Below, piece by piece: positions 7,497-32,778 of a stretch of DNA of 64,000 nucleotides; the first letter of the stretch is position 1, and every line of letters begins with the position of its first letter. The translations under genes and the position numbers were made by a program. Below the pieces are notes generated by a model. That model did no database searches, was not told where the DNA came from, and saw only the letters and a list, made by a program, of their open reading frames with translations. This DNA comes from Auricularia sp. M13. Lineage: Eukaryota; Basidiomycota; Agaricomycetes; Auriculariales; Auriculariaceae. The stretch spans positions 2,790,001 to 2,854,000 of the forward strand of contig CM073201.1 of assembly GCA_037042915.1 (NCBI GenBank), read 5' to 3'.

Positions 7497-9603
7497 TCAT
7501 TGGTCAGCGTCAGCCTTGAGCGAGCTGCGTCCCGCGCGAAGAATCTCATCCGTCGACAGAAGATTCATCGCGATAACCGAACTGCATGGAAGGAGTCAGT
7601 AAATGGCAGTACCCACAAGCGTATGACATACCAAGAATGGAGCATCTGCTGCTTGACGCGGAAGTTGTCCCATACACCCTCGACTGTCGGATCGCAGGGC
7701 TCGCCGCTTTGCAAGTCGAGCCCAACAGGCGTCTTGCCTTCGCTCTCGGAGAGTTCCTCTTGGAGCTTCAGGATGGTATCCTGCACATCAAGACCCGCGT
7801 TGGCCGCAAGCGTCTTGGGGATGACGAGGACGGCGTCCGCAAACGCCTGGACGCCGAGCTTGGTGCGGCCCTTGGCGATGTCGCGCACGGCCTTGGACGA
7901 CAGGTGGTGGTGGAGCGCGAGCTCGAACGCGCCGCCGCCGGGGATCAGCGCGCGGTCATCGAGCGCGTTCTTGACGGCGCGCAGGCCGTCGCGCAGCGCA
8001 TCGTGGATCTGCGTCGTCGTGTACGCGTTGGGGCCCTTGATGAGCAGCGTAACGGAGCGCGGGTCCTTCACGTCCTCGACGAACGTGAACTTGTCCTCGC
8101 CGAGCGTGTGCTCGTACACGAGCCCCGCCCAGCCCAGCACGTCCGGGGTGAGGTCGTCTACGGAGTTCTGCGCCGTGCCGCCCACCGCGAGCTGCAGGCG
8201 CTCCATGTTGCGCCGCTTCGCGCGCCGCAGCGCGAGGATGCCCGCCTTGGAGAGCATGTCGAGCGAGAGCGGGTCGATGCCCTTCTGGTTGATCACAACG
8301 AAGCCCTTCGGCTTCTCCTTCGCGTCGACGGCCTGGTCGCACACGAGCTGCTTGAGCTCGATGATCTTCTTTACCTTGGCGTCCGTGAAGCGGCGCTCGG
8401 ACTCGACGAGCTTCTCGCGCTGCTCCGCGCTCGAGTAGAAGAAGCCCGAGTTGATCTCCGTCTTCTCGTATTCCAGCGAGACGTTGAGCGTCAGGATGTA
8501 CGCGTTCTCTACGCGCTTCGGCATGTCGGGATGCCGCGCGCCATGGTCGAGCACCAGCCCGCGCACGAGCTGCGTCTCGCTCGCCACACGGTGCTGCATC
8601 TTCATGATCTCCACCATGTGCAGGTCGATCTGCTCGGGTTCCTCTCCGTCCTTTGCCCGCGGCGCGATGGCGAGCACAGCGTCGACGACGTCCGCCGCAA
8701 GCTTTTGGGCCAGCTGCTCATGCAGCTTCGTGGCGAGCGATGTGTGGGCAACCGAAATGAGTGTTGCGCGGTCCAGTTTTTGCTTCACTTTGTACGTTTC
8801 AAGGAACTGCAAAGGACGTGTGTCAGTAAGTGGGCATAATAAACAATGAGCGGAATTATGGCAAGACAACAGCCCTGTATGGGATGCCGAGACATATAGC
8901 AAGAGCGTGCCCGGACTCATAACCGCAGCAGGTCTCCAAGGTGGGGTCGAATGGACGCGTACCTTTAATGCTTCGTTTTTTGCGAGGTCAAACCCCTCTG
9001 CTACCACAGTCGGGTGCACGCCTTCAGAGATGTATCGATCCGCTTGCTTCAGCAGCTCGCCGACGAGTAACACCACAGACGTAGTGCCGTCGCCGACTTG
9101 GTCATCCTGGGCAACAGCCGTGCGTGCCACCATTGCCGCAGTTGGGTTCTGAATAGTCGTATATTGAGCGAGTTCTGGTCATTGCGGTTGATTCTGCCGA
9201 CTCACCTGGATCTGCATTTCCGACAAGAGCACTTTTCCATCCTAATGAGCATAGTACGTTTCTGCATGAGTTGAAATTCGTGGATCAGCAACGATGTGCT
9301 TGCCTTGGTCATCTTAATCTGGCCTGCGCCATCGACCAGCATTTTGAGTGTGCCGCGCGGTCCTGGGCATTGTTAGTAGCATATTAGGATGGTAATGTGC
9401 TACTATCATACCAAGATTCGAGCGCACGACATTGGCAAGGCCCAAAGCGCCAGTGGTATTGGCCTGGATAGCCCGTTAGAATGGTAACCAGATATTGCGA
9501 CGCGCGTCGATCGCGATAGCCGCAAGCTGCATAGACGCACCTGCAGGGCCTGCCCCCGGCGCACGCTCTCCGCCTTGGGATTGATGAGCTCGATACCTGA
9601 CAT
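7497..9603 (-). CDS. CCT6: T-complex protein 1 subunit zeta (CCT6)
   Basis: A group II chaperonin subunit, one of eight in the cytosolic TRiC/CCT ring that folds actin, tubulin and WD40 proteins. The start at 9603 reads [20 protein letters not shown], as in CCT6. Several small exons follow, then [18 protein letters not shown] (the nucleotide-binding loop), [34 protein letters not shown] (diagnostic for zeta), [36 protein letters not shown] and [16 protein letters not shown] last exon ends [21 protein letters not shown] at the stop at 7497-7499. The length of about 545 residues is normal for the family. Its 5' side (9698-9931) holds several TTCnnGAA motifs that fit a heat-shock element core. 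Confidence 0.95.
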
Positions 9604-9697: not shown

Positions 9698-9931
9698 TAT
9701 TTCCGGCGGTAGATACAACTCCACTCATCAGGAGTGGCATCTAAGAGATACCCTCTCCGGATTCTGGCAACCGCTGGAAATCAGAGCTCCACACACATTG
9801 GGCGAAGTGAGGAGCAATCCCATTTCCAGAAACCATATACCGTTGCCAGAGTGCGCATCTGTGGGTGGAACTGTGCTGTATCGTTTCCAGAAATCTCAAC
9901 GGCCGCCATTTCCCAATTCACTTTCCAGAAA
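9698..9931. repeat. Cluster of TTTCCAGAAA palindromes (HSE-like)
   Basis: Perfect TTTCCAGAAA occurs at 9833-9842, 9894-9903 and 9922-9931, with weaker versions near 9698 (ATTTCCGGC), 9757 (ATTCTGGCAA) and 9843 (GTTGCCAGAG). TTCnnGAA is the tail-to-tail half of a heat-shock element, and the cluster lies 100-330 bp upstream of the CCT6 ATG. The same motif recurs in three other non-coding clusters of the window, so promoter function is not the only reading. Confidence 0.55.
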
Positions 9932-10176
9932 GCTGCCCGTTCTCAGCTCGACCTTAAATCAAGACTTGGTTGCATTCCGTTTTTCCCCAAGTCCCCATCC
10001 GCCTCCGCGTCGCTCATCGACGTGCGCCTCAAGACCCCGCCTCAAGACTCTCCATTCTCCGCCGCGCGCCCGCCATGGTGTTAACCCGAGCGCGTCTGCG
10101 TCGGCGTATGAGTCGACCGCGCACGCGCCAGCTTCGCGAGGAACTGAGCAGGCTCGGCATTCTCGGACCTCCGCCC

Positions 10177-10687
10177 ACAAGGGTCCCTCGTCGGCAAAAT
10201 CCGATATCACGAGGCTGGGGGGAGGGGGGTCCATTTGAGAGCTTATGAGAATTTTTTAAGGCAAGAATTTTGGTGAAAATCTGAGTGAATGCACTTGATC
10301 TTGGCTCAGAAATCCTGTTTTTGGGCACTAGACGCAGTCCTCAGGCCATTGCATCATTCATGAGCCATACAAGCCGAGAAGCACCTGAGGTTGGTGTTTG
10401 TGCGAGTGGGTGGTGCTCCGGAAGCATTTAGGCTCAGGATGCAGATTGGTTCCGGCTACTGGTAGTGGTATTAGTAGTAGTGGTGATGGACCTCTACAGA
10501 GCACAAATTGAGCAGTAACATACCATTCTGATGATTTTTCAATGAGAAATTTGCTTCCATATGGCTTTTGGCTTGGGATGACTAAGCACCGGAAGCAAAT
10601 AGGGGGGGGGGGGGGGGGGGGTCCATTTCAGGTCCTTATGAGAATTTTTGGCCCTGTGTTCCGAATTTTTTTTCGAGGGACCCTTGT
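10177..10687. mobile_element. MITE-like element with 14-bp terminal inverted repeats
   Basis: ACAAGGGTCCCTCG at 10177-10190 is mirrored perfectly by CGAGGGACCCTTGT at 10674-10687, with looser A-rich similarity further in. CCGCCC lies directly outside both ends (10171-10176 and 10688-10693), as a target site duplication would. There is no coding capacity. A G-run followed by GTCCATTT, then TTATGAGAATTTTT, occurs twice in the same orientation (10224-10257 and 10616-10649). Family unknown; size and structure fit a non-autonomous DNA transposon. Confidence 0.65.
10602..10621 (+). repeat. Run of 20 G
   Basis: An uninterrupted G homopolymer inside the MITE-like element, next to the second copy of its internal repeat. 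The first copy has a shorter, interrupted G-run (10217-10229). Its length may be unstable or affected by sequencing error. Confidence 0.95.
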
Positions 10688-10918
10688 CCGCCCAACCAGT
10701 GGAATCGATTTCTGCAGGCGTGGCTCGTTCATCACCGCCGCCGCATTCACAGTACGCATCCCGGAAATGTTGAAACCAATCGCTCACTGAATTGCGTGCT
10801 AGAAACTCCTCGTGACGTCTTTCTCGCGGCGACCACGGACTATCGCGCGCTCTGCCGCTGGATGACGCCGGGCCATCTGGAGACTTATGTGACGACGCTA
10901 TATAGCTCACTGCCGTAG

Positions 10919-11755
10919 TATTTTGTAGCCGCTCAGTGTCAACTACGGAATTGCGTGCCCTCGTCATGGAATGAAGTGTTTGCGTCGTGGATGTTAGAGG
11001 TACACCCGCACGCGCCGGTCAGCCTGATACTGTAGCGGCGGCGGTGGCGGTGGGAGCACGCGCTGGTCTTGCTGTCCCACCGCAGGATGGTCCTTGAATC
11101 CTATTACATCAATGATATTCGAGGAACAAGCGTTGGACATTACGAACGGTACTTACGTTGTCACAGAATTCCACAACGGCACCAGCGATGCATGGGCGCG
11201 ACAGTGCCGGCGGCCGCCGTCAGAGCACGCTGAACAGGCGAGTGGTGCGGGTTTCGCGATACGGCGATGCGCAGCGCGGCGGCAGCAGCAGCGGGCGCAA
11301 TCAAGATGGCGAAGAGCGATGCGGCGGCGACGGAGTGTCATGCTGCAACGCCGCGCAACAGGAAATAAAAAGACTTCAGCAATCAACGTCAACTTTCGCA
11401 TACGCCCGAGATAACACGGTCTTTTTCCTTTTTGGCATCAACACGGTATGTCGTCATTGCATTTGACGCCGGCGCCAGCTCTCTGGGTACAGGTGGTTTA
11501 CAAACAGGCCAACATTCATTGACGTTCCGTATTATCAACTATCATCACCTCCGCGCTCACCACTAGTGGGCAATGACCGCCGCGTGGTCGCCAAACCTTG
11601 GGCCTGCACGCGGCGCCAACGCTGGTCACCACGATGAGCGGTCACGACCCACGAACGGTAAGCGGGACAGATCGATATACTCAAGAGTAGAGGCCGAGGT
11701 ATTTATTGCTGTACAAACCACCCACGTGATTCGGCGCACCAACACTAGCTACGGG
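10919..11755. other. Non-coding, no supported gene
   Basis: Frames of up to 106 codons exist on both strands around 11100-11410, but they overlap one another, are Arg/Ser-rich and lack splice-consistent extensions. A short GGC/AGC-rich patch lies at 11255-11300. I see no RNA gene or repeat with clear ends. Confidence 0.4.
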
Positions 11756-12430
11756 TTTCCAGAAACATGCACATTTGAGCGGCCACATGCCTGCTCGAGC
11801 TCCCACTTTCCTGAAAACCCCAGCAATATGGCCCCACAGCTAAGTGCAGCTTTCCAGAAACAGCGAGTGCAACAGCACCGCGTCCAGCTCCTACATTCCA
11901 GAAATCAACCGCACGACTGTTCATCATGCTCGCTCGCGCGGCCGCTTTCCAGAAACACACTCGGCATCCTGGCTCAGCTTTCTAGAAATATCTACTACCA
12001 CGGCATCCTCCAAACGTTTACGATCAGTACTTTCCCATCTTTCCGGGATGGAACTGACGCGAACGCATGGCTTTCCCCGATTGCCAGTACTTCCCTCATG
12101 CACGATGTCCTGGATTTCCAGAATGCAGTTTGTCACTGTCGTGCACTCACAGGGCTTTCTCGCCTTGCTAGAACCCACCGCCGATTGCCCCTGTACCAAA
12201 CGGTTTGCTATGAACGATCTTTCTGCAAACCGATGCCGCGTTTACCGGTAAAATGCAGGCTGTCTTTGGCCAATAGAAAGCAGTATGGTGCAGTTTCCCG
12301 CCTTGCTCGATTGCTCATCGTTCTTTCTATTCCTTCCGGACTTATGCTTCTGAGTTTTGCCGCTCCGCTCCCTGCTCATCTTCTCCCCACGCTTTCCCCG
12401 CCACCTCTCGCACACCAATTATTCCAGTGT
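11756..12430. repeat. Quasi-periodic TTTCCAGAAA array
   Basis: TTTCCAGAAA or close variants occur at 11756, 11807 (TTTCCTGAAA), 11851, 11895 (ATTCCAGAAA), 11946, 11979 (TTTCTAGAAA) and 12114, with weaker forms near 12040 and from about 12150 to 12421. Spacing in the first part is about 51, 44, 44, 51 and 33 bp, while the sequence between is not conserved by eye. It could be a decayed minisatellite with a conserved palindromic core or a protein-binding array. It ends just before gene A. Confidence 0.55.
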
Positions 12431-12436
12431 AGCGTA

Positions 12437-13036
12437 ATGCCACCTACCTCGACGCCGACACCCACCATCTTCTTCATGATGCGTCACTTCTGGTGTCGAC
12501 TGAATGAGATAACCCCATCTGGTGCGCAGCTTCGTGGTCTTCCGGCTGCTCTGACCTTCTCCTTGTCTTAGATGATCGTTATTCCTATATCCATCGCGCG
12601 AGGGACTCCTGCTATCGTCCCTTTATGGTACACTTGCGCGAATGCGAGAAGCGCCGAAAAGCTCTGCGCGACGTGTATATGGCAGTGGTCGCAGAAGGTG
12701 ACGAGAACAGTGACATTCGTTCCTGGCCGCGTGGATCTCCCTGGCCGAGTCGGTATCTGCGGCAAACAATGTCCCGCCCAGCTGACGGCGCTGGCCTCCG
12801 TCGACTCTATGTGTACTTGTGGCTGGTTGTGCACCCGCCTCACGATCAAGGTATTCCGTACTGCTGTCTGCATCTCAGCATTCTCACATCTTTCCCTCCC
12901 AGAGTCCGCCGAATCTCACCGCCACCGCGCCTCCAGAATGTACGCCCATGTTTCGGCACGATTGGATCACGCAGGAAAGGTCTCTCTCCACGAAAGCTTG
13001 CGCGTCATGTATGATATTTTGGGTCTATGGGTTTAG
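12437..13036 (+). CDS. Orphan protein, paralogue A of the gene at 28527
   Basis: A three-exon gene. Exon 1 (from MPPTSTPTPT) ends in RHFWCRLNEITPS. Exon 2 carries RKALRDVYMAVVAEGDEN and LRRLYVYLWLVVHPP. Exon 3, after an intron starting GTATTC, carries RASRMYAHVSARLDHA and ends LRVMYDILGLWV at TAG 13034-13036. The gene at 28527-29153 has the same exon order, intron phases and motifs (FWFRL, ALRDVYVTVVLLGEEN, LLYMYLWLLLHPP, SLVYVYDMLPIWH), so each supports the other. No signal peptide or known domain is visible; the protein looks helical, cytosolic and about 165 residues long. Function unknown. The two copies flank the KDZ block. Confidence 0.7.
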
Positions 13037-13149
13037 AGGCGCTTGGCAATGACAGACCTTTCTTGCTATACGCTTGCTGATGCCACATCTGAGTCCAAGA
13101 TTGCCAGTATTTTATGCGCATATCCAGAAACTGTGGAACATGTCCCCGC

Positions 13150-13575
13150 CTATGGGTCGGTGACCTCTATGTTGCTGGCCTCGATTAGAAATGCTGTGTA
13201 CATCCGCAGCAAGTTAAGTTCGGCGTCGCCAGGTGTGAACGACGACCAGAACGCCTGAAACGCTTGCAATGCGCGCATAGTGTACTCGTCCGTACTCTCT
13301 ACGTGAAACGGCATTGTGTTGGTTGGTACCTCTTGTACTACGATGCAGACGCACCTTGGGCCCTCCGTGGGTTCTGCCGGCTCCAGAACCATGCGAACAG
13401 TTTGTAGCGACTCGGTGGTCGTATGAGAGGTATGATCAGCCCATTTCCTAGAACTAAGGACATTTGGAGAACGAGGACAGCGACCAACTGACGATAGAGT
13501 GCGTGTTTGGCAGGTTTGCAGGGTGGGTTTTCCCAGATATGCAGCATTCTTGGCGTCTTCCATTCTGAAAAGCAA
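13150..13575 (-). CDS. Hypothetical protein or gene fragment
   Basis: An open minus-strand frame ends ELNLLRMYTAFLIEASNIEV-TDP at a stop at 13150-13152. Its downstream two thirds (from MVLEPAEPTEGPRC) looks coding and includes VVQEVPTNTMPFHVES and ALQAFQAFWSSFTPGDAE. The upstream part has poor composition and may be intron or non-coding, so the true start is unclear; an ATG giving about 78 residues is a candidate. It lies between gene A (convergent, about 115 bp away) and the 3' end of the KDZ transposase. No family recognised. Confidence 0.4.
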   Translation of the reverse strand: MLFRMEDAKNAAYLGKPTLQTCQTRTLSSVGRCPRSPNVLSSRKWADHTSHTTTESLQTVRMVLEPAEPTEGPRCVCIVVQEVPTNTMPFHVESTDEYTMRALQAFQAFWSSFTPGDAELNLLRMYTAFLIEASNIEVTDP

Positions 13576-13920
13576 TGCGAGTTCAAACCTGCTTACTGGA
13601 AACTATACCACCCATTGCGCTTTTTACAGTGCTCGCCTTCTGGAAACGCCAACCGATCACCACTCTCGGCATCGCGACCTTTCCGGAAACACGAGCGAGT
13701 TGAGCACTACCCAAGGCATCGTCCGTCAGGCTTTCCGAAAATCTCTGCAACCTGCCGACGAGCTGAGATGCAATCTTTCTGGAAACGCACGCCTGTCACC
13801 ACTCGTGACAGCGCGAAATTTCAGCAAAGATGAGCAATCCCAGCGCTGCAGCACCATCTCATTCATCTGCAAGGGCTTTCCGGGAAGGTCTGCTACCATC
13901 GACACGCCACTTTCTGGTAA
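13560..13920. repeat. Second quasi-periodic TTTCYRGAAA array
   Basis: Variants occur near 13561 (ATTCTGAAA), 13607 (ACTGGAAAC), 13637 (CTTCTGGAAA), 13680 (TTTCCGGAAA), 13731 (TTTCCGAAA), 13776 (TTTCTGGAAA), 13876 (TTTCCGGGAA) and 13911 (TTTCTGGTAA). Steps are about 45, 32, 43, 51 and 45 bp, the same rhythm as in 11756-12430. It abuts the 3' end of the KDZ transposase. Confidence 0.5.
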
Positions 13921-14034: not shown

Positions 14035-17000
14035 TCACTCGCTATCTTCAATTTCAATAGCCTCCTGCAGCTGAGCCGCCGTCAGCGGCGCCGGCGTGCG
14101 ACGCTTCAGCGGTGGCAATGCGCGCATCGCGGTCGTCATTTTCGCACGCACATCCCTCATATCCTCTTGCCGCAGGTCACTTGGATGGTCCGACGTCAGA
14201 AGACTCACGAAGTCGGCCGCCACAAATGGCCCGCAGTCATACATGTTCGTCTGACGAACGCCGCGCTACTCGAAAATGAGCTCAATATCCTATCGCGAGA
14301 ATGACAATCCACGGACCTTCTCACCAATCCATTTCCATGTGGGTATCGCCAAATCCTGCTCGTAGAGCTGCTGACAGAGGTCCAGCAGCGCGAACATGCG
14401 CGCCTTGATCACAATGTCGTAGCGGTTGCGGGCGGCCAGGCTGTCGTAAAATTTCAGCTGACGCAGTCGCCAGCTTACCTCAACCAGGGTCCAGTGTTCC
14501 GGAGCCTCGATATGTGCAATGACCAACCACTTCTTTGCCTGGGTTGGCGCAGGTAGCTAGTGAAACAATCAGTACCTCGGAGCATTGCACGCTGCCAGAG
14601 TATGGCTCACCGCCCTGATCGTCGCCCAAACGTAGCCTCGGCAAGTCTGCATTTTGTCCTCGTCGCCGACGGTTAGTGCGCCCATGTAGTCGCGGACATC
14701 CACGAGGAGCGTCGAGGGACAGTGCCCTATAGCCGGGTTGCCCGCCGCAATCACCTGCGATTCGGCATACACAGCAAGCCCCGACCCGCTGAGCCACGCC
14801 TCTCGAGAAGCCATACGTCCCACGTCTTCGCCTGCGCAGGTGAAGCGGCCGCAGGTCCTCCCTTCCTCGCGTGGACTGCGCTGGGCCACATTCAGATGTT
14901 GCTCGTCGTCGCTCGAAATGACGATGGGTTCGTCATTTGCGCGAAAGCGCGCTGTCGGCACGGCGCCGCTGTGCTCCCCCGCAACGGGCTGCACTTGGGT
15001 AGAGACCTCCGATGGGTTGCCTGAGGACGCCAACAAGTCGGCGATCTCGCCAGTGCCGTCGTCGTCGGCGTCACCGTCGTCCGCGCGCTCCGGAGGGACA
15101 AGGTCGTCGATAGCTCTGTCGAGCAGATACGCATCCTCCTCTTCCTCAGCAACATCTGTATCGTCACTGCCCGACATGTAGAACGAGCCCTCCGAGCCGG
15201 ATTCCTCTGCCAGTGTATCGGAATCGTCGCATGGCGCAGCGAAAGCGCGTGCTGTTGTCTGCGGGTGTGTGGCCTCGTTCCCGTCACCCGCGGCCTCCGC
15301 ACCAAACGGAAATGCAACGCCGATATCTGTGCGGGCGAGGGCGTCGTTCCAAATGCTTGCAAAGTAGATGAGCCGCCTATGTAGTACGGCCGACTCGAGT
15401 TTCAGCAGTTCATTCGCTGCATGGTTCGCCCGAGTTAGCAATCGCGCATACCCAACGATATGATCACTCACCACCCATGGAGGTAGCAATGCTCTGCACG
15501 ACGCGACACTCCTCCAACCACCACGACAGCAGCGCCTTGGCTTCGCCGCGCAGACGTTCGCGTTCCTCGCGGCAGCGCGACGCGTCCAACATGAACCGGA
15601 TCCCGTTCCGCACATTCTCGTCGACCTGCCAGCGCGGCAGGTCGCCTTCATCCTGCGGTCCGAGACCCGGGTCCTCCTGCCAGATGTCGTCGTCCACGTC
15701 CAATCGAAAAAGCTTCTTTGCGTCCAGCTTTCGCGGGACGACTGTCCTGCGCTTCGGGGCCTTGTGATTGCGAATGAGGACAGCGATATGAGTGACCTGG
15801 GCATTATACTTCTTCACGAGCGCAGTGATCTTGGTCTGTCTCGAGTGAACGGCGTCCTTCGTCTGAGCATGATCTTTGTTCTCTGCAGTAGATCAGCAGT
15901 ATACCAAAGACGCACTGTCTGAACATACGCATTATCTGCCGTCTGTAATTGCGCTCCAGCTTCTCCCGTTCGAATTTATGCGCCTGGACAGCCATACGTA
16001 TGTTCACCCGCAGAGCGCGCGCATTCACACGCGCGCGCACATAGGCATCGCCCTTCAGCTTGTCGAACTTCTGGAGCGCCCCCGTTCCCAGCTGCGACTG
16101 AGCGAGCGAAATCCGCGCGCGGGTGGACTTGACGTCGCGCTTCAGCTGGTCAATGCGATTGGTGACTTCTTGCACCTCCCGTGCTGGCAGTTGATGAGCG
16201 GAGCGCTTCAACTTTGCGCGTTCGTCGACGAGCTCCTGCTTCAGATCGTCGACAAGAGCGAGCTCAAGCAAAATCTTGTCGATCTCCTTGTTGCCGGCGT
16301 ACTTGGACTGACCTGTTCACCGATTGTCAATAATGAAAGCTTGGCGAGCGACCTGACAACTCACGCGGCCCTGTAGCCACCTGAGCGGTAACCTGCTCGT
16401 TCCATAGCCTGCGCAGGACATCCTCGTCGACGCCACAGAGCCGCAGCTGGCGCTCGGCTTCGCGCAACCTTTGCTCTACATCGGTCCAGCGTTTGGACAG
16501 CCAGCGTCCAACTTTGTACAGATTCTGCTCGTCGAGAAATTGTATCTGTCTGTCCAGGACAAACATTCGACGGTGAAACTGCTTCAGAGTAAGCCGATGC
16601 AGCTGGAGCGCTCATTGCAAGACTCACACCGGAGACTCGCAAGCACGCAATGAGATGCCGAATGGAACTCCAAAACCGCTCACACCCCTCCCCGTCAGAT
16701 AAACCGAAGCCGTCCCGCTTGCGCGGATGGAAGACGAGTTGACACGCCCATTGGTGGCCATAAGCATGGAACACGGAGACGGCGAAGACCATGCGATCAG
16801 CGTACTGCTCGAGGAAACCATGCTGCAAATATTGAGCTACGATTGCCGCTGCAAGAAACGAGAACTACATACCTTCTCAATGCTCCTGGACAGCTGGCAG
16901 GCGATATCGTACAGGACGCCAATGTTCCAGTCAGCCGGGAGCCCTTCGAAGAGCTTTCGCAGCAATACCAGTGCGTAGTGTTGCCGCTCGCCAGGCGTAG

Positions 17001-18925
17001 TCAGATTCGCCAGATAAAGTACGCGATCGTGTCTGCACAGAAGCGCCATTAAGCCAGTATCGGCGTAATAGTTCTTCGACGCCTTCGTGACCTTCTCCTG
17101 GGCCGCGAGAAACGACGATTCGCACTCATCCAGCACATCATCTTCGAGCGTCGCTGATGTACCTTTTGTGCGACGCTTCGTGGGTCGTTTGCGCTTCGCG
17201 TCGACCTCGCGCTCCATCGCGGCCACCTCCTCTGCAGATACAAACCGTCCACCAGCGAATGTAAGCGGCGGGTCGGTTGCCTTAGACTTTCGCCTTTTCT
17301 GCGCGAAGTTCGCGTCAAGACAGACGATGGCATGGGCCCTAGAGTACGCGCGAGGCGAGCAGGTCAGCCGACGAAGATGAGCGAGAGCAAAAATCACGCA
17401 CGAAGTCTCTTCGAACTCAGGCCGTTCGCCTCCAAAGCACAGCGGGCAGCGCGCCCGTAGATAGTCGGTCGGGCGGCTGATGGGCGCATCGGACTACAAT
17501 GTTATCAGCACACTAAATCCTATTCTTGCGGCGCAGCCTATACACACCGCAGCATTCGGCAGCGGGTCCTCTGGTTCAGGACCGTCCTCCGGCTCTTCGG
17601 GCTCCACGCGAGCGCGCTTAGCCTGACGCGCTCCGCCCCTGCCTGGCTGGCTGTCGTTCGCGTGCTTTCGGACGATCAGCACATTGTATCCTTTTACTGC
17701 GGGACCACCTATACGATACGCACCACAGCATTCGGCAGCGGGTCCTCTGGTTCAGGACCGTCCTCTGGCTCTTCGGGCTCCACGCGAGAGCGCTTAGCCT
17801 GACGCGCTCCGTCCGGGCCTGCCTGGCTGTTGTTCGCGCGCTTCCTAGAAAGCGACGTTCGGACAGCTGCTTGCAGAGTCAAATTCAACCCTTTCTTCGG
17901 TCCAACTCACGCACCGTCGACTGAAGACCGAACATGACCATCCTTGACGTTCACAAGGACTTGATACCAGTGAACCGCGTTACTGAGTCGTTTGCGGAAA
18001 GCGCGCTGTTGGCAAGACTCTTAGACCTCGTGGACACGCATTGTCATATCCTGCATGCTTACAGATTCGCCGATGAGGAAACCGCGCCGGGCCCAGAACG
18101 CTTCGAGCGTTGTCGCCCAGGCAGTGCAGTTCGGAGCGACTTGCAGCGAATGCAATGAGATGAATTCGAGCAGCCGAAGGCTGAACGCCATGGACGGCCG
18201 CTTCGGTGCGCACGGGAAATATCCCAGCTGTACAAGCTGGGTCGCTGTAGGAGCACATTGGCATATGAAGAATCTGCGCTGGCTTGTAGCTGTATCCACG
18301 TTAGTCGATATTACAGGAAAGTACGTGCGCAGAGCTTACCTTCCCAGTCGGCCAACGTGATGGTAATAGGTCGCGCCCCCCTGCAAGAGCAGGATTCCGG
18401 CAGTGTCGGATGACATTCTCCTTCGTGAATGTACCGCAAGAAGGGTTCGACGAGGGCCGGGATGACCGTGTCACGCCATGTCGCGTGCTGCACTGCACGC
18501 CGCACCTGGTGCCGTGTCGACGCAGCCGTGCCCAGATTAACGCCTGCGTCCTCAGGGTCAAAGGGCGCGGGCGCCATAAACTCGTGCATGTCGTCGTCGA
18601 GCTCGATATCGCCCGGTGCTGTGCCCGGTGCGGCCAGAAAGGTTGCCAGAGCAGAAGCGCCAGGTACCACCGACTGGGGTAGATTTTCCTGTTGCGAAAA
18701 TTGATGCGTTGGCCCTGCGCTGAGCACCGTTGCCTCGTTGAGAGCCTTGGGCAGCCGTTCTGTCCCGGGCTTACGGCGACTTTTCACAGTCGTGTCCAGT
18801 TCATGAAAAGCGAAGTCGTCCAGTGTTGGGCCCGGAACAGGCTCGCCGTTAATGCGCGCGGTTGCCGCTGCGTGGGCAGCATAATTCCTCCTGTGCGTAC
18901 GACGACGCGATACACGGTGGGACAT
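14035..18925 (-). CDS. KDZ-type DNA transposase with C-terminal Ulp1-like peptidase domain
   Basis: A minus-strand gene of many exons starting MSHRVSRRRTHRR at 18925. The family signature appears in order: LVQLGYFPCAPKRPSMAFSL and RLLEFISLHSLQVAPNCTAW (18289-18063); FRKRLSNAVHWYQVLVN; a CPLCFGG zinc-type knuckle; IVCLDANFAQKRRK; TGLMALLCRHDRVLYLANL; IGVLYDIACQL; FHAYGHQWACQLVFHPRKRD; FGLSDGEGCERFWSSIRHLI. The Asp of LDANF, the Asp of YDIACQ and the Glu of GEGCERFW match the D-D-E of the KDZ RNase H fold, and all three are present. A coiled coil follows (15804-16270), then an acidic linker. The last exons encode an Ulp1/C48-like fold: HWTLVEVSWRLRQLKFYDSL with His and Asp, then TNMYDCGPFVAADFVSLL with Cys. 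All exon joins I checked keep frame, so the gene looks intact. Confidence 0.85.
17551..17847. repeat. Tandem duplication, offset 176 bp, inside the KDZ gene
   Basis: AGCATTCGGCAGCGGGTCCT begins at 17551 and again at 17727, and about 115 bp after each start are nearly identical. On the minus strand both copies encode the same segment (RVEPEEPEDGPEPEDPLPNA, preceded by ARQAKR and a Lys/Arg-rich lead) and both end at a GT donor. This looks like a duplicated exon with its intron; both copies stay open. Confidence 0.8.
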
Positions 18926-19936
18926 CGGCGACGGAAGGAAAGGGACGGCGACGGAGTTCATTTGCCTCCGCAGACTGCATGTTTCTCCCTGCGCACCGCT
19001 CAATACATTACATTGTGAATCTTGTCTTGGTACTCAGACAAGCTATTGAATAACGGTTATATGATACAGAAAGGCATTGCGAGATCTGTGAACTACCCCT
19101 CGAGGCAGCTGGTGTTCACTGCACTGTCCGCCATGAACAAAGACGGATCCTTCAACACTTACAGTCCCACGAAGCGTATTTAGTCCTCCAATGTGGTCTA
19201 AAGTCCAGTGATCCAACGTACATAGAATATATAAGAAAAATCTACGCACTTTCGCAACGAACAGTGCGCACTGGACCCGCGACTTTCGTCCCGAAGTCGT
19301 GTAGGATCGACCATAGAGCATTTTGGGGCCATTCAAAACGTCTCACAACCATGATAGCGGTGTATTCTCCTTGTAATTAGGCTAATATGTTCTTTTTCTG
19401 GCATTGCTCTGCTCGGTCGGCGCGATTCAACAGCAAATGTCTTCTGAGTGCGCATTGTGCACTTTGCACAACATACAATATACGACCCAAAGTTCAGTAT
19501 TGTTACAAAATCACTACATTGGAGTACACGGGAGTCATTGAATGCCATTTATATGCTTGTTTGTACGTATCTTTGGTCGTTTCCGCTTGATAAACGACCT
19601 CAGGCGCATTGGGATGAGTCCACAGTTCCGCAAAACCCGTCGATTTCTCATTCACCGGTAGTAAATTACTCTGGAAATGGCTCAAAAGCTTAGATTATCT
19701 ACTTGAGCTAGTATTCCGAGGAGAAAGAGTACAGGGATAGGGAGCAAGAACGACTCGCTGGCTGTAGTGAAGAGTCCAAGGAGTTAGCGGAGTTCACACC
19801 GACGGATTGTCGGTGCTTCTTGCCCTCATACCACACCGGCAATCTGAGACTTTCCGCTCATGAGGGGTCGACCGCGCATCCACTCAGACTCGCGTGCGCG
19901 AAAACGAGCGTATTACCAACGGTAAGAGGTTACAGT
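18926..19936. other. Divergent intergenic region, no supported gene
   Basis: About 1 kb of AT-richer sequence lies between the starts of the transposase (-) and the coil protein (+). Only short unsupported frames exist. It should contain both promoters. Confidence 0.45.
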
Positions 19937-20586
19937 ATGATGTACGAATCTGTTGTCACAATTTTGCATCATAGAAACCTCGAGAAGGAGAGGGAGAAGG
20001 CGCGAGACCGGTGGCACGCGCGGAAAGAGCATAAACATTCTCTTCGCGATGAGAAAGACGAGGAGCGTGCTCTGCTCGTCGCAAGTCTGCCCCACACAGC
20101 GAAGGCAAGTCACTTCCTCGAGACCATTTGCTCAACATCTAACGTCTATCTCAGCTTCTTGGTAGCAGCATGCAAATTACCGCCCGGACGCAGCTTCAGC
20201 AACTGCATGACCGCTTGGCGCTCGACTTGCAGGGCTGGCGCACCCGAGCGACTGATACTGCAGAGTTCGCAGCCATCACAGCCACGGCACTCGACCTTCT
20301 CAGCAGCCAGTCTGCAGAGTCAGATTTGGACGTTGTCCTGGAGCGTGGAAACGCCGTGTGCCACGCGGTATCCACGCTAGCTGGCCTCGGTGAGAGGTTC
20401 GCGTGGAAGCTCTGTCCGGAACACGCAGTGCAGGAGGATTCTGTCTGGAACGCGCTATGTTCGCTGGAGAAACACGCTCAAACTCTTGCATTTGCGCTTG
20501 ATGAGATTGCCATTCTTTTTCGGGAGGCACCTGATGCACTTAGGGAGAACGCGGAGAGCCGCAGTCTCACCTGGCACACCATGTAG
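19937..20586 (+). CDS. Orphan coiled protein with a GC-AG intron
   Basis: Two exons. Exon 1 (ATG at 19937 or 19940, MMYESVVTILHHRNLEKERE) is a charged helix with heptad-like Glu/Lys/Arg and ends TAK at 20104. The junction reads AAG|GCAAGT, a strong 5' site for the rare GC-AG class, with CTAAC as branch site and TCTCAG at 20149-20154. Exon 2 resumes in phase 0 (LLGSSMQITARTQLQQLHDR) and runs to the stop at 20584-20586 through SLEKHAQTLAFALDEIAILF. GT donors nearby break the frame. The product has about 199 residues and is all-helical by appearance, with no recognised domain. Its position between KDZ genes suggests cargo, but function is unknown. Confidence 0.55.
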
Positions 20587-20718: not shown

Positions 20719-22183
20719 TCATGACCAACCCTCCCAGATGCGAGCGCGGGCCTCCGAGTCCGCAGGCGTGTTGAGCCCGCGGCGAAGGACGTTCACGACC
20801 GTCTCGGCGTCTGGGACGTTTGCCTCGACGTCCCGGAGCCGTTCCTCGACGCGTGACATGGCTGCCTCGGCAGCTTCCACGCGCGGAAGAGCGCGACGCG
20901 CGCGACGCTCGACGTGGCGGAGCCGGCGCTCAAGGCGCTGCTGCGGATTGAGCGTATACGGGCGCTCGTCCTCGGAGCCCTCGCGCGATGAGCCGGTCAT
21001 CCCCCCGTCGTCGTTCCCCCAGATGCTCGTGTCGACGCGCGACAGCATGTTGGGAAACATGCGGAAGAGCCGGGACTCGCCCTCGCCGTCCAACGTGCGA
21101 CCATACACCGGGCGCACGCGCGGGTCGATGCTGGGAATATGAGACACGAGCCAATGTGCAAGAGTACAGCGCTCTCACCTGTGCAGCAGCACGCGGAAGT
21201 CGGTCAACGGCTCGGCGTGCATGGCGGCGACGAGCAAGTTGACCTCCTGCTCGTTGAAGAGCTCCAGGCGGCGCACGATGTCGGCACAGCGGGCCTCCGA
21301 ACGCGAATGGCGCTGCCAGACCATGTCGACCCAGCTGTGGAGGAGGGTGACCTCGAGCGAGGTCAGAGTCTTGCCGCGGAGTACGTCGTCAAGCGTGCTG
21401 TGGACGACGGGCGGCGCGATGTCTCCCCTCTGGTTGTAGCCAAAGGGGTTGGCCTCGTGCTGGTCCGGGCGGTGCCATCGCAGGTCGAGCCAGGGAACGG
21501 TGCCATTCACCGTGTCTTGATGACGGTACTGCGCAAAAGATGCAAAAAATAAGCATCGTGAGTGTCAATGAATGCGATGAGCTTACGACTGCCCCCAGCA
21601 TAAGAGCTGCACCGTGCCCCTCGGCGCTGGCGTCCCAGCCGCTGTGGTCGGGATGCGCGTCGTACGTCCAGCGTGAGGGAACGGACGCCGCCCAGTTGCC
21701 GTCCCAGTCGTCCCATCCAGAGGTGCGGGGGGTGGCCCTGGCCGGGGACGCAGGGCGCGCACTTTGCGCATTTTGAGGTGCTTGGGCGGGCGGGACCGGA
21801 GAGGGAGCCCGCGGGAGATGCGCATTTTGAGCTGCCTCGGCCGAGACAGGCCAAGGGGCGCGGGGAGGGATGGCTTGTGCAGCCCGCCAGCGCGCGGCCG
21901 CAGCAGTGAGTTCGCTGACAACCTGCCTCGCGTCCACACCCCGATTGTTCACCCAGTTCGTAACGAACCGGGCGCGAAGGGCTGCGCGGCGCCTGGCCTC
22001 ATCAGGGTCGCCGTCGGCGGGCGGGTCAATTAACGGGGGGGGCTGGTCGGGATCCTCGTCTGGAGCAGGCGAGGGCATGGCGGTTGTGGGGGGGTTGGAG
22101 GCTGGCGCGGTGGCAGGCGGGATGGCAGGCGGGGAACGCGAGTCTTCCTTGGCCCAGACGAGGGACCAAAGGAGTCGGCCCAT
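20719..22183 (-). CDS. Orphan protein in the KDZ block
   Basis: The ATG at 22183 (MGRLLWSLVWAKEDSR) opens a Pro-rich, acidic first exon with DEARRRAALRARFVTNWVNN, several PxAP segments and SGWDDWDGNWAASVPSRW. A second exon after GTAAGC carries VPWLDLRWHRPDQHEANPFG and SLEVTLLHSWVDMVWQRHSR. The last exon is helical and Arg/Glu-rich (QQRLERRLRHVERRARRALP) and ends ARIWEGWS. The total is about 440 residues. I recognise no domain, signal peptide or membrane segment. The clean frame over three exons argues for a functional gene. It is divergent from the HMG-like gene, with a shared about 700-bp upstream region. Confidence 0.6.
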
Positions 22184-22901
22184 TTGACCGTCGGGGAAGG
22201 AGGAGGAAACGGGAAAGCCGGAGAATGAAAACACGCAGGTCAGTGATGGTGATGCAAAGCTCGCCTGCGGGCAATCCAATGCATAGTTTCTGGCCTTCGG
22301 CAAGAACAACAGTAACAAGGTGCGGCAAAAGTTTAATTTAAGAGCAACTGTTGACTGCAGACGTAAGATTCGTCGAGACTCCGAGGACATCGACGAGCGT
22401 GGTAAGATTTGAATGAGCAGGACGAGACGCGGTGAGAAACGGGAAAGACGGGAAACGAGGGTGCCATCAAGCAGACCACACGCATCTCGGGCCAGATTTC
22501 TGGAAAGCATTGACCCCAAGTTTTGCAGTCCGTCCACAGTCTGATGAAGTCCAATGACGATAGCATTGATTGTGAAGCCCTTCCCCACAGAATGACTTGC
22601 GATGGCGAAATTCCGTTATGCAGCTGTGGTGAGTCCGCGCGGCATGGCGCGTTTCCAGAAATCGGAGCGTGCGAAGGGGGTGACCAATTTCCGTCCATCA
22701 AAGCGGACGCTGCGGGAGATGGCGACGATCAGATATCCACGAGCTCACAGGGAAAGTCAGAGGGTGATTTCCAGAAATGCTCAGTGCAACAGCAGCGCGG
22801 CAAAGGCAGATTGCTAGAATTCTTAAACGCCACGCTCCAGAGATCTCGGGATTTCCGAAACGACTCCCCACTTCCAGCCTCTCTCACGTCGCGTTTCCAG
22901 C
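22184..22901. promoter_or_regulatory. Divergent upstream region with TTTCYRGAAA motifs
   Basis: Between the divergent starts of the orphan (-) and HMG-like (+) genes, TTTCTGGAAA occurs at 22497-22506, TTTCCAGAAA at 22652-22661 and 22768-22777, and weaker forms near 22851 (ATTTCCGAAA) and 22891 (GTTTCCAGC). These are the same words as in the 9.8, 11.8 and 13.6 kb clusters. TTCnnGAA fits a heat-shock factor core; a transposase or HMG-protein site is equally possible. Confidence 0.45.
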
Positions 22902-25900
22902 ATGTCGGCCCCGGAGGAGAGCTCGTCGATACGTACGACGCGCAGCCGCGCAAAGCCCAACGAGCCGCTAGCGCAGCTAGACCAGTCATCAAAGCCGGTA
23001 AAGGTTCCCAGGTCCACCAGGGCGGTCGACGGGCATGCAGGACTCAAGCAGCAGCAACAACATGACGCCGTATTGGAGCACGAGGGCGTAAGCTATAGTG
23101 GTGTTGTGAACGGGACGCGCAGTCTAATGACGTTGGCTCGACAGGCAACTCAGATGGGACCGACGACGCAGCAGGTGTCAGATGTTGGAAAACCAAAGCA
23201 AACGACGGCCAAGAAGGTGAGTTGACGAGTATTCCTGAACTTGGTACTGAAAGGAGAACAGTCAGGTGGTCGACAGCGAAGGATTTTGCCCGCGCAAGAA
23301 ACAGTGGAAAAGACGCCAGCGGGCGACACGGTAAGTTTGGTGCCTGGAATTATGGTCTGCGCGGCTCGCTCAACACTTGAGATACTTAGAAAACTGTTGA
23401 CGCCGTCGGTCAGGGGTCGGAGCCGGCCGACGCGTCACTTGCCGCAGACGGCCGTGATCTGCAGCATGGCGGCACCATCCTCGGTCCTGATGGCAAAGCC
23501 AAGTCCGAAGTAGCACCGTCCGGGGCGCCTGGGTCAGCAGCGCGCAAGCCAGGAGTGACCAGGTCGAAGACAACCAGATCCGCGCCAGTGCCCAAGATTG
23601 CGGCGCCACAGCCGAACCAACCGCAGCCTGCGCCACTGCCCGCTCACACTGGTGCACCGGGCCCCTCTCGCAAACAGTTCCCGCCGTCTGGCCTGCCTCT
23701 GCCGTCTGGCCCACCTCCGCCGTCTGACCCGCCGCCGACGTCTGACCCGGAGCTGCCGTCTGGGCCGTCGCAGCCTTCTCGCGCACTGTTTGGTCCGCCG
23801 CCGACGTCTCGTGCATCATCACCGACCGCACCGCCGCCCCCGCACGGTGCGCCGTCCGCGCACGCTTCTCCGTCCCAATCTCGCGCGCCGTCCCGCGCAC
23901 CGTCTCCATCTCGCGCACCGTCCCGCGCGCCGTCCCCATCTCGCGCACCGTCTCGCGCGCCGTCCCCATCTCGCGCGCCACCATCTCGCGCGCCGTCTCG
24001 CGCGCCGTCCCCATCTCGCGCGCCGTCTCGCGCGCCGTCCCCATCTCGCGCGCCGTCTCGCGCGCCACCATCTCGCGCGCCGTCTCGCGCGCCATCACCG
24101 TCTCGCGCGTCGGACGCGCCAGACGCGCCAGACGGCAGACATTTGGAAAAACAACCTCTTTTCCTGCCATCGCCCGGGGACAAGGAAGAGGAGCAGGCAG
24201 GCCCACAACCAAAGGACCCGAACGATCTCGACATACTCCTCGCCCGAGACGACTTGCCCGTGGATGATAGCCGCCCGGTGTTCCACGAGGAGCTCATGGA
24301 GGACTTTCTGAACGACGAGGATGTCGACGAAGACGGTGCCCCTATCGACGCGGACGACGCGGGCGGCACGAGTCGTGGGCCTTACGCGAAAGGTCCCATC
24401 CCCAAGTCGGAGAAGGAGCTTATCTGGAGCATCACCAACGAATACCAGGACAGGCTCAAGGCAGTCGCCGACCGGCTCAACCGCCCGCTGTCCAGCATCT
24501 TCCGCGTCGCGACTATTGTCATGAAGGACACTCGGCAGCCTAACCTCTATAACCTGTTTGTGAAGTGGTGGTGTCTCGAAAACCCACAGGCCGGTCGTAA
24601 GCATTATCATCTGCTGACGCTGGCGATGACTGACATTGTTGTGCTCGTAGGCAGCCTCGAAGAGATGCGCAGCAAGTTCCGTGAAGCGTACCACAAGGAA
24701 GTTGACCACCTATCCGTCGAAGGGAAGGAGGCATACAAGAAGAAGCTCATCGCGTGGAACGAGTCGTATGACAAGGAGAATGCGAAGGCAGTCCAGGAGG
24801 CTGGGGATCTCTACAAGGTTATTCTGCAGGCGCGCCTCGAGTTCGAGGAGCTCGTGAGTTTATCATATCTCGCGGGAGCACGCACCCATTGACGTTGCAT
24901 GTAGGCCCGCTACTACTATCGGTTCTACGACATCGTCGTCGTCGGCTGGGTCGTTTCTGTGCGTGCAGGGGACGACAACGCTAGTCGCGCGACAGGCGCT
25001 TTCACCAGCACGAAGGGCATGGCGAACATCCTGCAGAAGCGGGGTGCCAACTTCAAGGCCCTCGGCGATCAGCTGGCGGCTCTCGGCAAGTGCGTATCCG
25101 TGATTAATCTCAGGCTGCATACTAATTATTCGTTCAGGGTTGGGGAGATGACAAAGGTCGAGCCCACGGACTTTTCGCAAACTGGGCAGTCGTGGTACAT
25201 GAAGCATGCCAAACATGACCAGGTCAAGGAGCGGATTACACCCTGGCTTATCGAGGCTCAGAGTGAGTACATAGCGCATACTGTAACGCACGCGATGCTG
25301 ACTAAGAACGAAATAGACCAGGCTTCAAACCGTTCGCGCACAAAGATCAAATGGACAAACCATTTTATCGAGCTCGCCTGGGCAGGCTTTCGTTTTGTGG
25401 GCTGGCCTCATCGTGTCCCAGTCCCGCGGAGCGGCAAGACGCTCTGGGACAGCATCGACGACATGCGCAAGCTCATCACCGCTATTTACGAGACAGGACG
25501 CGGGGAGCGCGAAGAGGGCAGGGCTCTGCGTGTTGAGCGCATCAGCGACGGTATGTGAGAACTCACTCTGGCGTGTGTGCGTGCGAAGAGCGGCTACTGA
25601 TGTCAGGATGCAGAAGAGCTGGCATATCAGGATGACCCCAAGAAGTTAGCGAACTGGCGCGCGGTGCCGCTCTACATCGACGAAACCGGCCTCGCGATCG
25701 TCACCGTGGGCGAGGCGTTGGACGAGCACAAGTCGCGCAAGAGGGGTGGCAGCGGCAGTGCGAACGTCGAGCCGGCGAGCGACGCTGAAGATCAGACTGC
25801 CACGAAAGCCCGCAGCGAGGAAGATGAAGAGATGGACGTCGACGCGCCGCGGGCGAAGACGCGCGCGACCAGCGTCAAGAAGGCCGCGCAGAAGCAGGCG

Positions 25901-28526: not shown

Positions 28527-29153
28527 ATGCCCAGATACCCAACGTCCGAAGAGGATGAGGGCGCGCCCGGCCCCCGCTACATGATGGGATACTTCTGGTT
28601 TCGACTCGTACCATACGTGAGCGGAGGTAATGTGAGAGACAGCGTCTATGGCTTGTCTCACCTGCATCTACAGTGGAACCGCTCTTAGGATACATTACCC
28701 GCCTGAACGATGAGGCACCGGCGGCCTTCTTCAGAAAAACGCCAGAAGAACGAGAGGTCGCTGTTCAGGCCTTGCGCGATGTCTATGTGACCGTTGTGCT
28801 GTTGGGCGAGGAAAACGCGGGCAAGCCGTGGATACTTCCTACAGCGAGCCCCCTGGCCGCAAGCTATCTTCAGGAGACGATGGAGACTCCGGATAGAACA
28901 AGCAGTGCGCGCCTGCTCTACATGTACCTCTGGCTCCTGCTCCATCCTCCTCAGGAAAACGGTGTGTATCTTGTGCTTTACTGCGCGGGGAATCAGAAAT
29001 GACTTACAACCCGACTCAGAGCATCCTTCCACGCATCGCAGGAGGGCATCCCGGGAATACTCCCGCATGGAGACTGAGATCTCGGCGGAGAGGCGAGGTC
29101 GTTTGCGGGACTCCCTCGTCTACGTGTATGATATGCTGCCCATCTGGCACTAG
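28527..29153 (+). CDS. Orphan protein, paralogue B of the gene at 12437
   Basis: Three exons: MPRYPTSEEDEGAPGPRYMM with FWFRLVPYVSG; after GTAATG...CTACAG, EPLLGYITRLNDEAPAAFFR with ALRDVYVTVVLLGEEN and LLYMYLWLLLHPPQEN; after GTGTGT...ACTCAG, RASREYSRMETEISAERR ending SLVYVYDMLPIWH at TAG 29151-29153. Intron phases (1 and 1) equal those of paralogue A. The product has about 165 residues, without signal peptide or known domain. Divergence from A is large, so the duplication is old relative to the apparently intact KDZ gene between them. Confidence 0.75.
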
Positions 29154-31230: not shown

Positions 31231-31569
31231 TTTGTCCATTTTCGTTCCGTCATGCTGTATCGTTAGCCGTGCTGAGCACTACATAGAGCTGTATTTGTAC
31301 CGTATACGCACTGCGATTGGGTCTATAATCTAATCGTGCATTTCAGTCACTGTCATCCGCCCGACTGGGTGCGGATCGGGATCCTCATGGTCACATTGGC
31401 TGGGGCGGCACCGCAACGAAGAACGCCTTTTGCAACACCTGACGCGGTCCACACGTGAAGCCTATCGCTTCGAGAAATCACTCGTCCGAGCCACGGCAAA
31501 GGCACAGTTAAATACCACCAGTCTCGCTGGCAAGTCTGCATTCTTTTTCTCTCACAGACCTTCGTTACC
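31231..31569. other. Intergenic, 5' flank of the GH93-like gene
   Basis: No gene. A weak TATA-like TTAAATA lies at 31508-31514, about 60 bp before the ATG at 31570. Confidence 0.45.
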
Positions 31570-32778
31570 ATGAAGTTCATCTCTCTTCTCCAGCTTGCTA
31601 TGTGCATCCCCTTCGTCCTTGCTGGCAATGTCCAGCTTGTTGCTCGCGCCGGAGTGACGCCCTCGCTCACCGGCGGGGCGTCAGTCTTCGGCGCAGGCAC
31701 GTACCCGCGCGCGACGCGCCTGGCGGACGGCAGCCTGCTAGGCGCGTACACCGCGAAGGACGGTGACGCGAACGTCATCCGCACCGTCATCTCGCACGAC
31801 GACGGCGCGTCGTGGTCCGCTCTCGGCGAGGTCACACGCGGCGTGGGCGATATCGACAACCCCTTCGTGCTGCAACTCCCATCTGGTGCGCGCATGGATT
31901 CTCAGGCCCCTGATGATGACGCAACTGATCTTGGATCTACGCGAATCGTTACTCAGGGAGGGTGCTCGCAGCGTTCCGCAACCACTCGAAGGACGCAAAC
32001 GGCAACATCACCTTCTTCCGCATTACGATCTGCTTCTCGGACGACGGGGGCAAGAGCTGGCAGTTCCTCAGCCAGCCGGCGTCCGACCCTGCGGGTCCGA
32101 ATGGTATGTCGAAAGCAAACGACGTCGGATTGCAGTCATGATCACTCACTGGATGCACCGACAGGCAACTGGGAGCCTTTCCTCCGTCTCTCGAGCCGCG
32201 ACTCCAACGTCATCCAACTGTACTACAGCCGGGAGAATGCCGCGAACGACCAGGACTCGCTGATGCGCACCTCGTCGGACGGCGGCGCGAACTGGTCGAC
32301 GGCGTCGATCATCTCGGGCCAGAACGTCACCGCGCGCGACGGGATGCTGGGCGTGACGCCGTGCGGCGGGAGCAGCTCGCGGCTCATCGCGGTGTTCGAG
32401 AGCGTCGCGCCCGGCGGAACGTTCAGCGTGTGGAGCGTGACGAGCGACGACGACGGCGCGACGTGGGGCAACCGCCGCCAGGTCTTCGTGCCGTCTGGCA
32501 ACAGCAACAACGCGGGCGCGCCGCAGGTCGTGTGTGTCGGCGGCACGACGCTCGTCGCGAGCTTCATGACGGACGAGGACACCGGTGCGCACCAGTGGCC
32601 CGGCCAGGCAGCCATGAAGGTCGTCACGAGCACCGACTTCGGCGCCTCCTGGGGACACAAGACCACCATCTTCTCCGCGGCGGCGTTCTGGCCCGGCTTG
32701 ACCACGCTCAACGGCACGACATTCCTTGCCCTCGCGGACAAGGGCGGGTCCAAAGCTCAGAGGGTCGTCTTGCTCTAA
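31570..32778 (+). CDS. Sialidase-fold (BNR/Asp-box) secreted glycosidase, GH93-like
   Basis: The signal peptide MKFISLLQLAMCIPFVLAG is followed by a six-bladed propeller pattern: SHDDGASW, CFSDDGGKSW, TSSDGGANW, TSDDDGATW and STDFGASW are five Asp boxes. GTYPRATRLADGSLLGAYTA matches the start of the sialidase superfamily. Two introns, 1887-1957 (PSG|RVLAAFRNHSK) and 2114-2164 relative to base 30000 (GPN|GNWEPF), both keep frame. The length of about 360 residues fits GH93 exo-arabinanases; these release arabinobiose from arabinan. Sialidase activity is unlikely without the Arg triad, which I did not find. No GPI tail. Confidence 0.7.
   Translation: MKFISLLQLAMCIPFVLAGNVQLVARAGVTPSLTGGASVFGAGTYPRATRLADGSLLGAYTAKDGDANVIRTVISHDDGASWSALGEVTRGVGDIDNPFVLQLPSGARMDSQAPDDDATDLGSTRIVTQGGCSQRSATTRRTQTATSPSSALRSASRTTGARAGSSSASRRPTLRVRMVCRKQTTSDCSHDHSLDAPTGNWEPFLRLSSRDSNVIQLYYSRENAANDQDSLMRTSSDGGANWSTASIISGQNVTARDGMLGVTPCGGSSSRLIAVFESVAPGGTFSVWSVTSDDDGATWGNRRQVFVPSGNSNNAGAPQVVCVGGTTLVASFMTDEDTGAHQWPGQAAMKVVTSTDFGASWGHKTTIFSAAAFWPGLTTLNGTTFLALADKGGSKAQRVVLL

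Follow-up and report, generated by a model that had tools for sequence, protein, structure and literature searches.

The 64,000-nucleotide stretch of Auricularia sp. M13 DNA analysed here (the window; C9:2790001-2854000 in a genome of 52.1 Mb on 14 contigs) contains a gene whose product is probably the transposase of a KDZ DNA transposon with several genes and few copies, and this transposase would carry a SUMO-deconjugating protease at its C-terminal end, with both the substrate of the protease and its role in transposition predicted from sequence. Read directly from the DNA are an intact predicted gene, a CxC1-KDZ-C48 domain order that recurs throughout a family, a full catalytic tetrad, evolutionary constraint and recurring companion genes. 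If the reading is right, a lineage of mobile elements brings its own enzyme for the removal of protein tags such as SUMO.

The gene lies on the minus strand, with its ATG at 18925 and its stop codon ending at 14035, and its 1400 codons run across 14 exons without an internal stop. All 13 introns have GT...AG borders and measure 46-63 nt each, and the exons join in one frame. The initial annotation, made from the letters of the window, had proposed just such a minus-strand gene with exons joined in frame, and the gene model bears it out with exact limits of 14035-18925. Exon boundaries were set by hand from an alignment to the nearest sister copy (C7_403, at C7:400-406 kb), in which exons match well and introns poorly; the start ATG at 18925 pairs with the ATG of this copy. 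A splice-aware aligner with the hand-built protein as query gave the identical protein from the window, which is not independent evidence, and from the C7 copy a nearly full-length protein with no stops and one frameshift in the fast-evolving linker, which we attribute to misalignment close to an intron border. Omission of exon 5 leaves the reading frame intact. A 128-nt tandem duplication (17540-17843, 92% identical) covers parts of exons 4 and 5, and the C7 copy has, by eye, a repeat of its own in the corresponding linker.

In Pfam, the spliced protein matches KDZ (PF18758) with 209.5 bits (cut-off 26.6) over profile positions 3-217 of 217, Peptidase_C48 (PF02902) with 45.1 bits (cut-off 20.7) over positions 89-208 of 217, and CxC1 (PF18802) with 42.2 bits (cut-off 26.9), with CxC2 scoring slightly under its cut-off; the KDZ and C48 assignments, first made by eye, both hold at the level of profiles. 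The three KDZ motifs named in the initial annotation are all present, with LDANF starting at residue 426, YDIACQ at 562 and GEGCERFW at 618, and their D/D/E residues are presumably the catalytic acids, as had been proposed. Across the family, motif 1 reads [LVI]DANF in all 11 rows that cover it, motif 2 is intact in 11 of 12 (the exception, C3_3562, has a frameshift), and the first Glu of motif 3 is kept in all 12, with the variants GEGCERLW (C4_369) and GEGCKRFW (C11_1713).

The peptidase is equally complete in its catalytic residues. Its motifs begin at residues 1265 (HWTLVE), 1280 (FYDSL) and 1328 (RQTNMYDCGPF), and the His, Asp and Cys previously recognized in HWTLVE, FYDSL and DCGPFV are H1265, D1282 and C1335. 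The oxyanion Gln, which had been described as not obvious, is in fact there: Q1329 stands six residues ahead of C1335 and completes a His-Asp-Gln-Cys tetrad, all four columns of which are invariant in an alignment of 10 copies. A profile built from these 10 copies finds 19 distinct sequences in the PDB at E <=0.01; the best is SENP1 (E 2.8e-12), further matches include SENP2, SENP3, SENP5 and a Ulp1-like protease, and both alignments inspected place His, Asp, Gln and Cys opposite those of SENP1 in the same order and spacing.

Constraint extends over both enzymes. Between the window and the C7 copy, overall synonymous divergence (dS) is about 2, with synonymous differences near saturation, and the ratio of nonsynonymous to synonymous differences (pN/pS) is lowest in KDZ (0.11) and increases through the coil region (0.25), the N-terminal part (0.27), C48 (0.31) and the acidic region (0.47) to the linker (0.68); against more distant copies, C48 reaches 0.47 and 0.56. 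Judged by these ratios, transposase and protease are both under purifying selection, the protease less tightly than the KDZ core.

The architecture is a family trait. A genome search for KDZ (E <=0.001; 150 of 163 candidates scored) gave at least 149 matches at no fewer than 95 loci, and one for C48 (E <=0.1) gave 47 matches at 37 loci. In 20 of the 95 KDZ loci found, a C48 domain on the same strand follows downstream at a distance of 1.85-2.29 kb; these account for 20 of the 37 C48 loci, against 0.2 expected within 6 kb. The C48 domain of the C7 sister escaped this search despite its intact tetrad, and its inclusion brings the linked copies other than the window to 20 (19 plus C7_403), near-identical pairs being counted apart. 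The tetrad is kept in 14 of the 15 other linked copies examined, i.e. in 13 of 14 aligned rows that reach C48 and in C7_403; this count leaves out the linked copies at C10:1080, C11:1733, C11:2473, C7:2082 and C7:3302 kb, and four further KDZ rows of the copy alignment are partial and end before the peptidase. The aligned proteins of C11_2275 and C7_403 are nearly full-length and stop-free. Two copies, on C11 and C1, are 99.5% identical over two compared stretches of 5.1 and 3.2 kb, which indicates a recent duplication within the lineage; identity stops at C11:2280587 and C1:4991068, one end of the shared sequence. A related KDZ-C48 copy is found at both C9:76-85 kb and C6:264-273 kb (L070/L071), 99% identical over >9 kb.

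A KDZ tree of 33 rows, which covers a part of the 95 loci (L029 and L030 were left out by choice), places all 10 C48-linked rows inside one 15-row clade with support of 100/99; no C48 is listed for the remaining 5 rows of this clade or for any of the 18 rows outside it. The C48 label changes 4 times on the tree, compared with a mean of 8.7 for shuffled labels and with 1 of 500 shuffles as low, and these 4 changes leave losses, missed domains or several gains all possible. A second, divergent set with C48 beside KDZ (C1_2702, C1_2671 and C2_5057) is not in the tree.

The fusion gene is accompanied by further genes (Table 1), none of whose tested frames (A1, A2, B and D) has a Pfam match above cut-off. 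Gene A2 has 17 genome matches in 10 places, each on the 5' side of a KDZ gene and no more than 13 kb away; under uniform placement, the chance of all 10 lying this close to a KDZ locus is ~1e-13, with the distance picked afterwards. The KDZ gene beside A2 has a linked C48 in 8 of the 10 places; the other two were not listed by the C48 search. Five copies of A2 share the strand of the KDZ gene at a distance of 3.1-3.4 kb, and five lie on the opposite strand at 8.0-12.4 kb; the tree shows both layouts inside a single well-supported group of four copies and, once more, within two further pairs. This interleaving requires at least two inversions (by hand count, with 8 of the 10 copies in the tree and the intervening sequence covered for a minority of copies), suggesting that the companion block may have flipped more than once with respect to the transposase gene. 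All four closest copies have gene D ~1 kb past the 3' end of their fusion gene, and the span from A2 to D is about 15 kb in both the C11 and the C1 copy. Gene B is confined by protein search to the surroundings of the four closest copies, its C7 copy lying in two pieces 11 kb apart, and DNA search gives short matches elsewhere too; a search of solved structures with its 217-aa (amino acid) frame gives no hit up to an E of 0.1. A second copy of gene D in the window (28682-28963, 43% identity to the first) lies beyond gene B. The region as a whole is bordered by ordinary-looking genes, a TCP-1 chaperonin by Pfam on the left (7568-9178) and, on the right, a BNR-repeat protein just under the Pfam cut-off (31459-32775).

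Table 1. Features of the fusion gene and its surroundings (positions in the window)
Feature	Position	Strand	Basis or remark
CxC1-KDZ-C48 fusion gene	14035..18925	-	14 exons, 1400 aa, predicted
Exons 1-2, N-terminal part including CxC1 cysteine cluster (aa 176-241)	18063..18925	-	PF18802 match
Exons 4-5, basic/acidic fast-evolving linker with tandem duplication	17548..17866	-	Linker pN/pS 0.68 against C7
KDZ core, aa 422-655, exons 7, 8 and start of 9; candidate acids D427, D563, E619	16531..17331	-	PF18758
Exon 12, acidic linker with SUMO-interacting-like PIVISSDDE (aa 1139) and N-terminal part of peptidase region	14611..15416	-	
Exons 13-14, C48 catalytic part; tail ends AIEIEDSE	14035..14556	-	Pfam, copy alignment, SENP1 profile
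Tetrad codon starts: H1265, D1282, Q1329, C1335	14496, 14445, 14253, 14235	-	
Companion gene A1, approximate limits	19830..20586	+	Conservation with C7 sister
Companion gene A2, C-terminal half coiled-coil-like by eye	20719..22183	-	Conservation, 10 genomic places
Companion gene B, exon limits approximate	23390..25558	+	Protein search with 188 aa
Companion gene D, convergent with fusion gene	12586..12852	+	Five genomic places
Left clusters of TTTCCNGAAA motifs	9823..13785		
Right cluster of TTTCCNGAAA motifs	22497..22777		

An iterated motif, TTTCCNGAAA, occupies 12 places in the window, all at 9.8-13.8 and 22.5-22.8 kb; with one place counted on both strands this makes 13 matches, where 0.28 are expected. 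Pairs of the motif 25-55 nt apart number 6 genome-wide, 4 of them in the left flank of the window element and the other 2 in that of the C7 sister, and a control with the reversed motif gave no such pair in the genome. The cluster of the C7 sister lies at C7:397873-397987. Over the 9.5 kb examined, the C11 copy has one exact match and no cluster; single copies of the motif also occur elsewhere, with at least one in 10 of 78 loci, some of them outside the group of fusion elements. The motif may be a binding site for a protein of the element; the TTCnnGAA within it resembles a heat-shock element. A perfect 14-bp inverted repeat, ACAAGGGTCCCTCG, is present at 10177-10687 around 483 bp with two 40-nt direct repeats, and looks like a small non-autonomous insertion.

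How might the parts of such a protein work together? SUMO is linked both to the silencing of transposons and to the repair of DNA breaks. In the mechanism that we propose, the CxC1 region would bind DNA or chromatin, the KDZ core would cut and join the element, and the C-terminal Ulp1/SENP-type protease would remove SUMO from proteins of the transposition complex or of the surrounding chromatin, held in place by the SUMO-interacting-like motif or motifs adjacent to it. The likely gain would be relief of SUMO-dependent silencing, or a complex shielded from SUMO-triggered ubiquitination, during transposition. Ahead of the protease, such motifs read PIVISSDDE in the window and VIVISSDSE in C7; the other end is a variable tail that closes, in 11 of 12 copies by eye and 9 of 12 by a loose pattern, with a short stretch of hydrophobic and acidic residues (such as AIEIEDSE in the window, PDIIIDD or TIVISSDSDE), those of C10 and C7_1740 being caught by eye only. 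These motifs are suggestive of SUMO as the ligand. The removal of SUMO-like modifiers, already proposed in the initial annotation, gains some support from them, with the substrate itself still a prediction. The element may in this way alter host control at its target, as the initial annotation suggested, and the protease might also act on the transposase itself. We also advance, tentatively and in the awareness that it may well prove too ambitious, the idea that this KDZ lineage (about 15 kb in C11/C1) has combined a SUMO-deconjugating transposase, SUMO-binding tails, private iterated binding sites and a repeatedly inverted companion block into a self-contained escape from SUMO-based silencing.

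A number of observations weigh against the gene being the transposase of a mobile element with a SUMO protease attached. Inspection of the 25 longest among 37 inverted pairs at 9.2-30.5 kb revealed no long terminal inverted repeat, and comparison of one flank with the other (9.2-14.0 against 22.2-30.5 kb) again gives none, only 33 short matches (best E 0.004), with the iterated motif itself among the top three. KDZ target-site duplications are typically 7-8 bp, and none was seen for the window element, whose ends were not located. The genome holds no near-identical copy of the window gene; in the survey of copy number and identity that the initial annotation had proposed, the best other match is 72%, and this particular copy may or may not still be mobile. 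Several copies in the family have frameshifts or stops, and in C1_8653 the tetrad is absent or does not align. The C48 match begins only at position 89 of its 217-position profile, which makes the N-terminal part of the protease divergent, and a fold model of 14038-14850 reached a predicted confidence (pLDDT) of 37, too low to be informative, its input being a read-through of two introns (TAG/TGA as Ser) with no alignment. A single transcript across all exons is a prediction of the gene model. As for SUMO, the evidence from motifs is weak: the closest copy, C7_403, has no C-terminal SUMO-interacting-like motif, and the loose pattern was devised after the sequences had been viewed; a strict pattern has 8 matches in 20 proteins compared with 2.3 expected by local shuffling, a count in which near-identical pairs stand apart and one match (C1_4986) is positioned elsewhere, and 12 of the 20 proteins, 4 of them ending before the protease, have no strict match.

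Other explanations were considered for the same facts. The peptidase might process its own polyprotein, splitting a 1400-aa precursor so that the KDZ core or the C48 part is released, which we think unlikely. C48 enzymes cleave after Gly-Gly, fast-evolving linkers connect the protease to the transposase, and a Gly-Gly at 409-410 (CFGGERP), directly ahead of the KDZ match, is kept in all 11 rows that cover it; however, this pair belongs to a Cys-containing transposase motif, where its role may be structural, the other pairs are kept in 0 of 10 rows (359) and 7 of 11 (448), and none lies between KDZ and C48. It is also improbable, in our judgement, that domestication has made the window copy a host gene, or that it lies in a KDZ-derived cluster of host genes. 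The missing near-identical sister would fit domestication, as would constraint that persists though synonymous sites are near saturation against the nearest relative, but the architecture and its neighbours repeat elsewhere in the genome, with two copies 99.5% identical, and active Cryptococcus KDZ elements are low-copy too, with 1-5 full-length copies in the text available (PMC12810828). We give little credence to an inactive or binding-only C48 passenger, for which the faster evolution of C48 relative to the KDZ core (0.31 against 0.11) would speak, but not the retention of the tetrad in nearly all other copies examined. Nor do we expect transposase and protease to be two separate genes: the fusion is predicted from genomic sequence, but the frame is unbroken through short GT-AG introns, C7_403 and C11_2275 likewise give nearly full-length, stop-free proteins, and the KDZ-C48 spacing is fixed in 20 loci.

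As a KDZ transposase with a SUMO-deconjugating protease, the predicted protein finds its nearest counterparts among fungal elements. KDZ1, KDZ2 and KDZ3 of Cryptococcus neoformans are likewise basidiomycete elements with a transposase that has CxC1 and KDZ; they are about 9-11 kb long, with few full-length copies, terminal inverted repeats of 139-241 bp and target duplications of 4-8 bp, whereas neither repeats nor duplications were found here, and the main text of that report, as far as available, makes no mention of ulp1 or a peptidase (PMC12810828). Kyakuja, Dileera and Zisupton elements with TET/JBP genes resemble the present case in joining an added enzyme to a fungal KDZ superfamily transposase, but the enzyme is a dioxygenase, and peptidase, protease, ulp1 and sumo go unmentioned in the available main text, which describes two Kyakuja families with no terminal inverted repeats (PMC12730594). 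In the accessible text of other papers, ulp1 is unmentioned for fungal KDZ elements (PMC7641404, PMC7473861), Dileera is mentioned once (PMC9674265), and the Zisupton zinc cluster is described for fish F-box proteins with no mention of Peptidase_C48 (PMC12062965). We found no paper in the open PMC literature that joins KDZ with Ulp1 or Peptidase_C48; the founding KDZ paper (Iyer 2014) is outside this coverage, and protein databases may list the architecture.

Outside the KDZ superfamily, the protease resembles the SUMO proteases SENP1/Ulp1 in its profile match and its aligned His, Asp, Gln and Cys, although the match spans part of the catalytic domain only and the domain here belongs to a transposase. 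According to the text available, C48 peptidases are associated with Mutator, CACTA and Crypton elements as well (PMC2836005, PMC8978399, PMC3212892), whose transposase or recombinase families differ from KDZ; in CACTA the C48 domain is in a second reading frame (PMC8978399), and in CryptonS it is in an additional protein (PMC3212892). A parallel in arrangement is Ginger1, some families of which have a C-terminal Ulp1 (PF02902) joined to the transposase, a role in transposition having been suggested by the authors, but the transposase is unrelated and Gypsy-integrase-like (PMC2836005, in the part available). Ulp1 domains are already known in other transposon superfamilies, which suggests that the KDZ fusion would be a variant of that theme; a constrained, tetrad-complete C48 on KDZ transposases would add another superfamily to Mutator, Ginger, CACTA and Crypton, suggesting an advantage that mobile elements have gained repeatedly.

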